Made by a program: the position numbers and the translations under genes. Shown here piece by piece: positions 54,612-57,915 of a DNA stretch of 64,000 nt. The stretch is from positions 1,475,069 through 1,539,068 of the forward strand of contig NZ_CP017881.1 in NCBI RefSeq assembly GCF_002761295.1. Reading direction: 5' to 3'. Origin of the DNA: Methanohalophilus portucalensis (GTDB taxonomy: Archaea; Halobacteriota; Methanosarcinia; Methanosarcinales; Methanosarcinaceae). The notes below the pieces were generated by a model. The model had not been told where the DNA came from. It saw only the letters and a program-made list of their open reading frames with translations, and did no database searches. Numbering within the stretch: position 1 is the first letter of the stretch; every line of letters starts with the position of its first letter.

Positions 54612-55445
54612 TTAATCTTTTAATACCAGTATATTTCCTCTTCCCTTTTTGAACTTGTCAATGAGTCCTCTTCTCTGCAGATCTGCGATCATCAGGCTTG
54701 TTTTTGCCTCAGAACAATTAAGTTTCTGCCTGAGATCTTTCTGGGTTATTCTTCCTCCGGCTTTTTTTACTATTGTCAGAATTTCCTTCAGGTCTGCGGG
54801 TAGTTCCTCTTCTTTTTTGCCCTCTTCTGGCTGCACTTCTTGAGATATTTCACCAGATGGTGCCATCTCAGGTGTATGTTCAACCTTGGGCATATCCGGA
54901 ATAGTTGTAACAGGTTTTTGATTATAATCTTCCCTTTTGTGGCGATAAAAATAGATTGCAACAATAAGTAGTGGAATAATGAGTATTAAGAAATAGGAGT
55001 AGTTATCCTTATCATCAGATGTTTGTTCAACGATTTTTGTACCTTCCTCTACAGAGGCTGTCAGGTTGCTTAATTCAGTATCGTTGAGGTCTTCAATATC
55101 TTCCTCATATACCGGATAAAGCAGTATGTCTATTACGTAATCTCCTTGCTTTTTGATTATAATTTCTTCTTCTGAGTAAGCTGTGAGTGTACCGTTTTCA
55201 TACCCTCTGGCTTCTATAAGATATGATCCAGGCTCCAGGTTGAATGCATATATCCCATTGCTGGCCACTACTGTTTGTGCAGGAGTTGTGTTTATTTCGA
55301 GTATGACATCTTCCTGTGGTTCTAAAGTGTACCAGTTATATAGTGAACCATGAACTGTTGCAGTTTCTTCGGCGGCTGCACAGCTGCACAATACCAGAAT
55401 ACACAGCAGGACAATTGTATTTATTCGAAGTTGCTTGTTACTCAC
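54612..55445 (-). CDS. membrane-anchored winged-helix regulator with extracellular domain
   Basis: 277 residues. Signal segment (NTIVLLCILVLCSCAAAEE), then a carboxypeptidase-regulatory-like beta domain outside (VHGSLYNWYTLEPQEDVILE, GSYLIEARGYENG), a membrane helix (YSYFLILIIPLLIVAIYFY about 150-168), a linker, and a cytoplasmic winged helix at the C-terminus (LKEILTIVKKAGGRITQKDL, CSEAKTSLMIADLQRRGLI). It can sense outside conditions and act directly on DNA. Divergent from the secreted acidic protein at 55707, its likely target. Confidence 0.85.
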   Translation of the reverse strand: MSNKQLRINTIVLLCILVLCSCAAAEETATVHGSLYNWYTLEPQEDVILEINTTPAQTVVASNGIYAFNLEPGSYLIEARGYENGTLTAYSEEEIIIKKQGDYVIDILLYPVYEEDIEDLNDTELSNLTASVEEGTKIVEQTSDDKDNYSYFLILIIPLLIVAIYFYRHKREDYNQKPVTTIPDMPKVEHTPEMAPSGEISQEVQPEEGKKEEELPADLKEILTIVKKAGGRITQKDLRQKLNCSEAKTSLMIADLQRRGLIDKFKKGRGNILVLKD

Positions 55446-55640
55446 AATCCTAGTTTAATGCAGTATTGCATATATTGTTTGTTGAAAATATGATTCTTCC
55501 TTTTTGGTAATTTTTGTTTATTAATCCTTTTTATTGGATTTAATTACTTTTTTAGCCTAATTAAAGCCTTATTTATGAAAATTAAACTATTATAAAGTTT
55601 TAAAATGCTTTATTTTTCTTTAAACTTTCCTGTTTTGAAA

Positions 55641-55650
55641 GTATATTTAT
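55641..55650 (+). promoter_or_regulatory. TATA element of the acidic surface-protein gene
   Basis: GTATATTTAT centred near 55646 predicts a start near 55672, about 35 bases before ATG 55707. The 261-base gap to the divergent HTH gene is very AT-rich and holds both promoters. Confidence 0.5.
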
Positions 55651-55706
55651 ATTCTCATCTGCCCAATATGCAATTGATGACGATGCTAAATACAAGGAGG
55701 ATTGGA

Positions 55707-57446
55707 ATGGATTTCAGAAAGATATTGACTTTTGTTCTGGTCATTGCAATGTGTGCAAGTATGTTTACAGCGGTTGCAGTTGCAAAGCCAGATAATGGAA
55801 TGAATACAGACCGGGGCAACATGAGCCCTAACAATACTTCCGTTCCTGATGATGTACCGGGAAGGAATATGGAAATGAATACGGACCGGGGCAATATGAA
55901 TCCTGGCAATACTCCAAACCCTCAAGTTTCTGCTCGTGACAAAGTACCGGGACAGAGGGAGCGGATGAAGAATAATTATGAGAATTCCAGGCAACATCTC
56001 CTGAATGTTAAGGACAGGGTCCAAAAGGGACAAATCTCTGCTAATTCCGAAGATGTATTCAATGTGTCCCGTGTGTATCTCAATGATACGATCAACTATA
56101 TGATAACCCGTCTGTCCGATACAAAGGAAGATTTCGAGAATAAAGGTGTACCAGAGGATTCCATCGAAAGAATCGATGAATACATCGGTCAACTTGAAGA
56201 GCAGCAGGAAAAACTCGAAGGTGCTGAAGACCGAAAAGAGCTTGCAGAGATTGCACGGGATGTGCGTAAGATCTGGCATGACGTTTCAAAGGACCTATAC
56301 AAATTCAGGTCTCTCAACGTCCTGAACGGTGTTGGAAATTATATTGATAAAGCCGACTCCATTTCCGAGCGTCTCGAGTCCGAAATAGAGCGTCTCAATG
56401 AAAGTGGAGTGGATACCACAGAAGTCGAACTAATGATTGAGGAGTATAATGCTCTGATTGAAAATGCATCAGAATATCGTGAAATGGCCCTGGATGCAGA
56501 GCAAGGCAGCAGTGAATCCCTTGCCTACATGCAACAGTCAGTGAATGCTACACGCCAGGCCAACGATGTACTCCGTGACATCCTGAAATTCCTGAAAGAT
56601 CACAGGCAGGGATTTGCTAATCTTTCAGAAGATACAAATGTCAGTGCCAATGGCAATGGGACAGCTGTACTGTCTGGTAATTTTGATATAAACCTCTCGG
56701 CAACAGATGCAAAAATTGTTGTGAAGGATCTGGCAGGTGATGCAACCATAGAGATGGACGGGGAATATGAGCGGATCACTCCCGAAGAATCCATGGGAAG
56801 GGGTACTCCTGCAGCAGTATATCTTAATTTCACAGGAGATGCTCATATTAACGGCAGCCGTCTTACGATGATGGTATCAGGAGAGAACATTTCCATTGAT
56901 GCAGAGGGTACTGGAAGCACGGTGTTCTCCGGTGATGGAACCTATACCACGGATTCTGACATCATGCAATGGGCAGGAACCTATTCTACAGAGGATGAAG
57001 ATTTCGATGATGAAGAAGAGATCGAGATTGAAGTAGAAATTGAGGGCGAGCAATCAGAAGTGAAAATAAAGTTCAATGAAACCGAGGATGAGTTTACTCT
57101 CAATACCACCGATTTGAATGAAATCATATCCGAGATCGGTAACAGAACTTCATTGAAAGCTAAGCAAATCGAGCAGTATATGGAGATCGATGAGGGCGAA
57201 GATTTCGATGATGAAGAAGAGATCGAGATTGAAGTAGAAATTGAAGGCGAGCAATCAGAAGTGAAAATAAAGTTCAATGAAACTGAGGATGAGTTTACTC
57301 TCAATACCACCGATTTGAATGAAGTCATATCCGAGATCGGTAACCGAACTTCATTGACGGATGAACAGATCGAGCAGTATATGGAGATCGATGTGGACGA
57401 AGACTCAGTAAACAGTACAATGAATGACGAGGCCGGGGAGGAATGA
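55707..57446 (+). CDS. secreted acidic protein with coiled coil and a duplicated C-terminal repeat
   Basis: 579 residues, family not identified. Signal peptide 1-27 (FRKILTFVLVIAMCASMFTA). Then a low-complexity part with MNTDRGNM twice, a helical coiled-coil region (about 90-300), a beta-rich stretch NVSANGNGTAVLSGNFDINL (about 310-425), and two 67-residue acidic repeats rich in D and E (EEIEIEVEIEGEQSEVKIKF). Several N-x-S/T sites fit glycosylation. Probably cell-surface or periplasm-like space; the acidic repeats could bind cations. ATG 55707 has AAGGAGG; longer frame lacks a signal start. A lipoprotein gene overlaps its end. Confidence 0.75.
   Translation: MDFRKILTFVLVIAMCASMFTAVAVAKPDNGMNTDRGNMSPNNTSVPDDVPGRNMEMNTDRGNMNPGNTPNPQVSARDKVPGQRERMKNNYENSRQHLLNVKDRVQKGQISANSEDVFNVSRVYLNDTINYMITRLSDTKEDFENKGVPEDSIERIDEYIGQLEEQQEKLEGAEDRKELAEIARDVRKIWHDVSKDLYKFRSLNVLNGVGNYIDKADSISERLESEIERLNESGVDTTEVELMIEEYNALIENASEYREMALDAEQGSSESLAYMQQSVNATRQANDVLRDILKFLKDHRQGFANLSEDTNVSANGNGTAVLSGNFDINLSATDAKIVVKDLAGDATIEMDGEYERITPEESMGRGTPAAVYLNFTGDAHINGSRLTMMVSGENISIDAEGTGSTVFSGDGTYTTDSDIMQWAGTYSTEDEDFDDEEEIEIEVEIEGEQSEVKIKFNETEDEFTLNTTDLNEIISEIGNRTSLKAKQIEQYMEIDEGEDFDDEEEIEIEVEIEGEQSEVKIKFNETEDEFTLNTTDLNEVISEIGNRTSLTDEQIEQYMEIDVDEDSVNSTMNDEAGEE
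56992..57393 (+). repeat. 201-bp in-frame tandem duplication in the acidic protein gene
   Basis: Two copies, about 56992-57192 and 57193-57393, match at about 94 per cent by hand count, with most differences clustered near the ends of the units. The period is exactly 67 codons, so the frame is kept. High identity suggests recent duplication or gene conversion. Confidence 0.95.
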
Positions 57447-57451
57447 ATAGC

Positions 57452-57706
57452 ATGAAAAGATTCATGGCTTTGTTGCTTGTCTTGATCATGTTTTCGTCTT
57501 TGATGGTATCGGGTTGTACAAACCAGGATGACTCGGAAGTGGATAATGAAACTGCATCCGAAGATTCTGCGGAAGATATACTTGCACAGGAAGGTGCAGC
57601 AATTACCGATGAAGAAATATCGTCACTGGATGATGATCTCGCAGAACTTGAATCAATGCTTGAAGGTGTAGATAATGAATCAGATATTACTGTAGAGGAT
57701 ATCTGA
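57452..57706 (+). CDS. small acidic lipoprotein
   Basis: 84 residues from ATG 57452. N-terminal signal with lipobox: KRFMALLLVLIMFSSLMVSGC, cysteine at about residue 22 as acylation site. The mature part is strongly acidic (DDSEVDNETASEDSAEDI, SLDDDLAELESMLEG). No fold recognised. ATG 57443 overlapping the previous stop is an alternative but sits too near the GGAGG. Co-transcribed with the acidic repeat protein and closed by a perfect hairpin. Confidence 0.75.
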   Translation: MKRFMALLLVLIMFSSLMVSGCTNQDDSEVDNETASEDSAEDILAQEGAAITDEEISSLDDDLAELESMLEGVDNESDITVEDI

Positions 57707-57715
57707 ATATCCTCT
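57694..57715 (+). terminator. strong hairpin terminator after the lipoprotein
   Basis: AGAGGATAT (57694-57702) and ATATCCTCT (57707-57715) form a perfect 9-bp stem with a CTGA loop that contains part of the stop codon, followed by TTCTTTTTT. The clearest intrinsic-type terminator in the window. Confidence 0.75.
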
Positions 57716-57786: not shown

Positions 57787-57915
57787 ATGCAACACGCTAA
57801 TTTTTATGAAGAAGAAGGTGCACAATACAATCCAGGTAATGTACTCCTTATCTTTGCTCTTGTAATCATGTTCCTTTTGGCCCTGCTTTTGGTAGGTATT
57901 GTAGGAGTAACCTGA
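57787..57915 (+). CDS. 42-residue single-pass membrane peptide
   Basis: ATG at 57787 (CAGGAGA upstream) opens a 42-codon frame ending at 57915. An acidic, polar N-terminus (FYEEEGAQYNPGN) is followed by one long hydrophobic helix (VLLIFALVIMFLLALLLVGI). TATA-like ATTTATATA at 57748-57756 fits a start near 57778. An in-frame ATG at 57781 would suit a leaderless message. Lies between the lipoprotein operon and htpX. Confidence 0.55.
   Translation: MQHANFYEEEGAQYNPGNVLLIFALVIMFLLALLLVGIVGVT

Follow-up and report, generated by a model that had tools for sequence, protein, structure and literature searches.

A membrane-anchored DUF7343 regulator and its divergent secreted operon in Methanohalophilus portucalensis: the probable core of a conserved archaeal surface-homeostasis regulon

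This study focused on three adjoining genes in a 64,000-nucleotide stretch (positions 1475069-1539068, hereafter the window) of the 2.08 Mb single-contig genome of Methanohalophilus portucalensis. REG encodes a putative membrane-anchored one-component regulator and, on the opposite strand, PAR and LIP encode a putative secreted partner and an acidic lipoprotein (Table 1). The locus is probably central to a conserved one-component regulon for surface homeostasis in archaea, in which REG would bind DNA at the PAR promoter in response to a signal from the cell surface. This view is carried by the architecture of REG, its linkage to PAR, the phasing of half-sites in the promoter between them, and the presence of like sites at other surface genes. 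The reading frames confirm the three genes and their orientation as given in a preliminary description of this DNA, and its idea of a membrane one-component regulator beside a secreted operon is borne out by the conserved linkage and by a candidate operator in the gap.

From the N-terminus, REG is made up of a signal peptide, an outer beta domain that may be transthyretin-like, a single membrane helix and a DUF7343 winged helix. Its hydrophobic segments lie at about residues 4 and 146, and an N-terminal and an internal segment of this type are found in 52 of 54 aligned REG rows. In the AlphaFold2 model, a helix at residues 3-22 precedes the beta domain, and a poorly predicted linker separates the membrane helix from the winged helix. 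By Foldseek, the outer domain resembles carboxypeptidase transthyretin-like domains (5aq0_B, TMt 0.74, E 4.8e-4) and also matches 6hif_Y (TMt 0.75), and the Pfam family CarboxypepD_reg was found in 8 of 21 REG relatives (best 2.1e-6), with no match at E<=1 in the window's own REG. The Pfam matches of the winged helix are DUF7343 and MarR types. DUF7343 (PF24034) covers residues 218-275 with 59.2 bits, well above the curated cut-off of 27.6, and matches all 21 relatives at E<=0.1; it is a family without assigned function, and no paper naming it was found in the literature searched. A sequence search of solved structures returned no relative of REG or PAR with E<=0.001.

With a predicted membrane region and a predicted DNA-binding domain in one protein, REG falls within the definition of the transmembrane transcription regulators (TTRs) given in a published census, which, in the parts of the text available, calls the Methanomicrobia enriched in TTRs and names neither the REG family nor its partners, operator or targets (PMC10269533). 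In Sulfolobus, the membrane activator ArnR has its boxes at about -43 to -84; ArnR and ArnR1 carry a helix-turn-helix at the N-terminus and two membrane helices at the C-terminus, together with a HAMP domain, and their boxes read TCGAC-N5-GTCGA (PMC6396743). As is proposed for REG, they are membrane-bound one-component proteins of archaea that regulate surface structures, with pairs of boxes ahead of the core promoter. REG is unlike them in its C-terminal winged helix, in the one membrane helix that follows an outer domain, and in candidate sites that are phased TAAAG/CTTTA motifs. ToxR-like regulators are single-pass proteins with a sensor outside, an N-terminal winged helix of the OmpR type inside, and partner genes alongside. 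REG shares the single pass, the outer domain, the inner winged helix and the adjoining partners, but its winged helix is C-terminal and MarR-like. By sequence and model, REG is a putative member of the broad TTR class and belongs to DUF7343, with its domains in another order than those of ArnR and ToxR. No description of a REG-PAR-LIP module was recognised in the titles and abstract openings of the literature on archaeal membrane regulators, S-layers and envelope stress, and a wider reading, in which archaea have an envelope-stress regulon of this kind, is plausible.

Of 111 genomes of the family, 99 contain a REG relative and 98 a PAR relative, and class-wide, at E<=1e-10, the two are found in 173 and 162 of 237 genomes, respectively. 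Linkage was counted over 150 REG and 149 PAR places among the matches listed, and counts of unpaired places are upper bounds. At least 115 of the REG places have a listed PAR no more than 4 kb away, at least 123 of the PAR places are equally close to a REG, and a LIP relative adjoins PAR in all 30 PAR loci fetched (L031-L060); the conserved linkage, whose absence was one half of the refuting condition set by the preliminary description, is strong. Divergent pairs predominate (72 of the 115), followed by co-directional pairs with PAR upstream (40) and downstream (3), and the co-directional REGs form one clade in the tree (support 100/98). The other 35 REG places have no PAR among the matches listed. 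Similarly, a PAR-profile match (E<=1e-3) was present in 49 of 80 named REG loci, and the remaining 31 hold REG without PAR, a few of them being truncated at contig ends; the winged helix of these lone REGs is nearly the same as that of PAR-paired REGs. Species of Methanohalophilus are the nearest named relatives at the locus (L061-L063; REG identity 81-87%), and all eight genomes of the genus carry both genes, which are about 3.9 kb apart in G005 and on separate contigs in G007. Pairs also occur in Methanomethylovorans and Methanohalobium, and a halophile-specific system is not supported, because REG-PAR pairs are found in Methanolobus, Methanococcoides, Methanosarcina (genus g13), Methanoperedens and Archaeoglobi. 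Genus g13 was recognised as Methanosarcina from contig coordinates (G088 is L136 and G100 is L114). The paired loci of the more distant groups include L090, L100, L103, L107, L111 and L118 of Methanoperedenaceae, L094 of Archaeoglobus and L140 of Archaeoglobi.

PAR has only one hydrophobic segment, at its N-terminus. No Pfam family reaches its cut-off on the protein, the S-layer domain PF07752 is not among its matches at E<=1, and Foldseek gave no match in the PDB with E<=0.001. In the AlphaFold2 model the helical bundle and beta domain are mostly near or above pLDDT 90 and the tail is poorly predicted. The preliminary description had pictured an acidic repeat protein with a signal, and both a predicted signal and the repeats are indeed present, but it is the repeat tail (residues 431-579; of its 149 residues, 56 are acidic and 8 basic) that shows the weakest conservation in the alignment of relatives, and the conserved body consists of the bundle and the beta domain. 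LIP has a lipobox, VSGC (by eye), whose GC is invariant in 18 aligned rows, and from that cysteine onwards 24 of its 63 residues are acidic and none basic. Two attempts to place PAR were rejected. VIA-align retrieved generic helical bundles only (best EzrA, Z 10.1, root-mean-square deviation 7.7), under the tool's caution level for helical models and with the beta domain barely tested, and DUF5667, an initial guess, had no match in the organism's own genome in a search that lacked any control match. One Methanohalophilus PAR gene (G006:C14:77931-79646, L035) has a TAG stop inside the match.

The candidate operator lies in the gap between REG and PAR. Across 41 divergent gaps, including that of the window, TAAAG occurs 144 times versus 39 in dinucleotide shuffles, and TAAAGT 79 times versus 10. 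Spacings between TAAAG motifs on the same strand peak at 5, 10/11, 20/21 and 30/31 bp, giving a phasing of about 10.5 bp that is in register with the BRE/TATA box of PAR. This element, AAAGTATGCTTATAT or a variant with no more than 2 mismatches, was located in 32 of the 41 gaps; relative to it, TAAAG starts cluster at -87/-85, -77/-75, -67/-66, -56/-55, -45, -7/-6 and -1, and CTTTA starts at -41/-40, -31/-30 and -20. The clusters persist without the Methanohalophilus rows, and the four half-sites of the window fall within them, at positions that are also filled in loci outside the genus; the window's gap has, besides, a degenerate TAAAC at 55583 and 55621 (-55 and -17 from the element). Among the 40 PAR promoters of divergent pairs, 22 show phased TAAAG, compared with 1 of 188 control upstream regions and none of the 84 with an AT content >=0.65. 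In a set of 34 sites, 22 of 36 TAAAG and 17 of 20 CTTTA motifs are in register within 1 base, for coverage expectations of about 30% and 24%; most of these sites were not used in defining the register, and the orthologues among them are not independent. The same register is seen in Methanoperedens and Methanohalophilus, and this makes it less likely that neutral sequence has simply been inherited.

For other carriers of the site, a three-repeat TAAAG pattern proved uninformative over the 111 genomes because simple tandem repeats (in Methanosarcina and others) made its reversed control about as common, and the 17-bp site GTAAAGTATGCTTATAT was used instead. At no more than 1 mismatch it occurs at 73 places in 51 of the 111 genomes, versus 3 for the reversed pattern; at least 52 of these lie within 5 kb of a listed REG place, as do at least 23 of the 25 exact sites. 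One carrier outside the core is an ABC operon of the MacB type. In Methanococcoides, where it follows co-directional modules, it is preceded by the site in five of six loci fetched (L203 and L205-L208, with 2 mismatches in L205, and not in L204), and in M. profundi (L063) such an operon lies between PAR and REG. In L206 and L063 its proteins are, by Pfam, a MacB_PCD/FtsX permease, an ATPase and a CARDB/NPCBM protein, the make-up of a MacB-type exporter. Close relatives of the ABC outer subunit are within 5 kb of a listed REG at no fewer than 44 of 91 places (outside Methanosarcina, at least 37 of 45), and next-ranked relatives at none of 43; the two sets are the best 91 rows and 43 of the next (36-44% identical, one a 74% fragment), 2 intermediate and the 13 weakest rows being left out. 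In two further genomes of Methanohalophilus (L272, L275), a like element with TAAAG at -77, -57, -47, -6 and -1 precedes the gene of a secreted protein with DxDGDG repeats, and proteins of DxDGDG make-up are found inside the module region in Methanolobus (L091, L121) and in L219. Two Methanolobus S-layer genes (PF07752) also have the site, with TAAAG at -86/-76 and -85/-75. Other matches have a different setting: those in L216, L217 and L220 have no half-site in register and two of them are inside reading frames, a motif match in G001 (L274) is inside a reading frame, and the second match in G000 (L271) lies some 245 bases upstream of a small protein that is unrelated.

On this evidence, REG would reside in the cytoplasmic membrane, with its putative transthyretin-like domain outside, presumably as the sensor, and its MarR-like winged helix inside. 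It probably binds the phased TAAAG/CTTTA half-sites, on one face of the DNA and upstream of the BRE/TATA element of PAR-LIP, and a change in the state of the surface would lead it to activate that promoter; ions, a surface-active compound, or free PAR or LIP proteins are candidate signals. Activation is favoured by analogy, since the half-sites lie upstream of BRE/TATA as the ArnR boxes do. The products would stay at the cell surface, PAR as a secreted protein with a helical and a beta part and LIP as a small lipoprotein rich in acidic residues, and in relatives the regulon would gain a MacB-type ABC transporter, the DxDGDG protein and sometimes an S-layer protein, supposedly under the control of REG. 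A likely role is reinforcement or repair of the protein coat under envelope stress. More tentatively, and at slightly less than an even chance, the module may represent an ancient archaeal envelope-stress response of Methanosarcinales, Methanoperedens and, by gene pairing, Archaeoglobi, in which a membrane-tethered DUF7343 regulator reads the surface layer and directly drives coat proteins (PAR, LIP, DxDGDG proteins and S-layer paralogues) and a MacB-type exporter via phased TAAAG operators, with neither kinases nor alternative sigma factors. To our knowledge, little is known of how archaea sense and maintain the protein coat that is often their sole wall. The REG module supplies a concrete regulator, together with a candidate operator that is defined and a few candidate targets, and the lineages that conserve it include Methanosarcina, which is genetically tractable.

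Several results weigh against a REG-controlled regulon. Shared ancestry, which inflates significance, is not taken into account in the shuffle, binomial and Fisher tests. The BRE/TATA element is missing, at no more than 2 mismatches, from 9 of the 41 gaps, including that of Archaeoglobus L094 (in at least one of them, L062, because the chosen start codon shortened the gap), and only 4 of 13 co-directional PAR promoters are phased. The 17-bp site is absent from the window's own genome, whose promoter has a variant element; a search of the eight genus genomes with this variant (no more than 1 mismatch) gave 7 places, 5 of them at PAR promoters, and 5 for the reversed-pattern control, so that only the positions speak in the window's genome. 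Up to 21 of the 73 sites are more than 5 kb from any listed REG place, most of the close ABC copies in Methanosarcina are away from listed REGs, and at E<=1e-25 the genome of the window itself yields no relative of the ABC outer subunit. Within 420 bases upstream of short-type Methanolobus S-layer genes (L238-L261, L263), the site was present in 2 of 25 loci (L238, L241), in the long type (L262, L264-L267) in none of 5, and G000 stretches L268-L270 (3 of 5 S-layer-matching frames) have no Methanohalophilus element at up to 3 mismatches; being so sporadic, the S-layer gene was dropped as a general target. That REG is an activator and not a repressor is a guess, made by analogy from site position. 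Finally, none of the 31 upstream regions of lone REGs has phased TAAAG, and these proteins have almost the same winged helix as the paired ones, which indicates that the array tracks PAR, not REG, and that another factor could bind it. An array that is the operator of some other transcription factor, with REG unrelated and present for other reasons, would fit these lone genes, but is quite improbable given that the array remains linked to both genes over the whole range between Methanohalophilus and Methanoperedens.

In bacterial Bce-type and envelope-stress modules, which are kinase-based, a membrane sensor is coupled with surface proteins and an ABC transporter of the FtsX/MacB type. Some REG relatives share the coupling to an ABC transporter, but REG is a one-component protein and the core in the window has no transporter. 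By analogy, REG could detect a surface-active compound and induce the MacB/FtsX-type transporter along with protective surface proteins, in the manner of a detoxification system, and the three ABC proteins that adjoin the module in L206 and L063 under the same site, and their proximity to REG outside Methanosarcina, are in keeping with this. Such a function is rather unlikely: in the window's genome, and in others, the three genes of the core occur without an ABC outer-subunit relative at E<=1e-25.

A stronger alternative, which is possible at clearly less than an even chance, is that PAR and LIP are mainly co-sensors that contact REG at its outer domain and thereby determine how active it is, like ToxR/ToxS or an anti-regulator, making the operon a feedback loop. 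The three genes are tightly linked, matches to the co-directional PAR paralogues centre on about PAR residues 211-417, and a lipobox pattern is passed by 5 of 13 co-directional PARs versus none of 40 divergent ones (FASGC in L204 was missed by the pattern), as if proximity to the membrane matters. REGs that exist without PAR tell against it, and the site-bearing carriers that lack PAR, namely the ABC operon and the DxDGDG protein, suggest a regulon of effectors, as in the surface-homeostasis reading preferred here.

The preliminary description had favoured a response to salt or divalent cations that builds an acidic, cation-binding matrix. LIP and the PAR tail are very acidic, a like promoter element precedes the DxDGDG protein of the two Methanohalophilus genomes, and an FTR1 iron permease lies near the co-directional module in Methanococcoides (L204), so that cation binding retains some support; but the PAR tail is not conserved, the DxDGDG proteins match no Pfam calcium-binding family, and the module is found in lineages that are not confined to high salt. 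As an account of the module, a cation matrix is unlikely.

Table 1. Features of the REG-PAR-LIP locus, in window coordinates.
Feature	Position	Strand	Description	Basis
REG	54612..55445	-	277 aa, GTG start; putative membrane-anchored one-component regulator	sequence, Pfam, AlphaFold2 model
REG winged helix, cytoplasmic	54621..54797	-	residues 217-275	Pfam DUF7343, model
REG membrane helix	54933..55001	-	residues 149-171, then basic residues	model and hydrophobicity
REG extracytoplasmic domain	55113..55361	-	residues 29-111, beta fold, putatively transthyretin/CarboxypepD_reg-like	AlphaFold2 pLDDT mostly >90
Candidate operator	55562..55625	+	TAAAG at 55562 and 55593, CTTTA at 55608 and 55618 (-76, -45, -30 and -20 from the BRE/TATA element)	
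BRE/TATA-like element	55637..55652	+	GAAAGTATATTTATAT; predicted promoter of the PAR-LIP operon	
Ribosome-binding-site-like AAGGAGG	55694..55700	+	before PAR	
PAR	55707..57446	+	579 aa; putative secreted partner, divergent from REG	
PAR helical bundle	55953..56603	+	residues 83-299, part of the conserved body	alignment, AlphaFold2 model
PAR beta domain	56613..56969	+	residues 303-421, bears most of the invariant glycines	alignment, model
PAR acidic tandem repeats	56997..57398	+	two of 67 residues (431-497, 498-564), DNA 94% identical, varying among species	
LIP	57443..57706	+	87 aa; acidic lipoprotein, 4-base overlap with the end of PAR	

Some minor observations concern the neighbourhood of REG genes. 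Lone REGs of ANME-2-type or unclassified Methanosarcinales (L105, L108, L113, L124, L125, L127, L128) lie, without PAR, upstream of an MscS-like channel (by Pfam, in L125 only), and the gene directly upstream of them is presumably methionine-adenosyltransferase-like. In one metagenome-assembled genome of Methanohalophilus, a transposase-like gene (by eye; L076:5511-5783) adjoins REG, and the PAR of that genome is on another contig. The co-directional module of Methanococcoides (L203-L206) is adjoined by the FTR1 iron permease (Pfam, L204 only) and small glycine-rich secreted proteins, as well as by a gene that we take to be an ArsR-like regulator.

In Methanolobus, a short S-layer paralogue is situated about 15-40 kb from the module in 16 genomes of the genus (G039-G043, G045, G050, G052, G054, G055, G057, G058, G060-G063). 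A second promoter type also occurs there (L202:5043, L211:4270, L212:4732, L213:4860), in which TAAAG at -47 and CTTTA at -42 form the palindrome TAAAGCTTTA upstream of a TATA element, and these promoters lie away from listed REG places. In the window itself, LIP is followed by a short open frame of 42 residues (57787-57915, plus strand), which contains one hydrophobic stretch.

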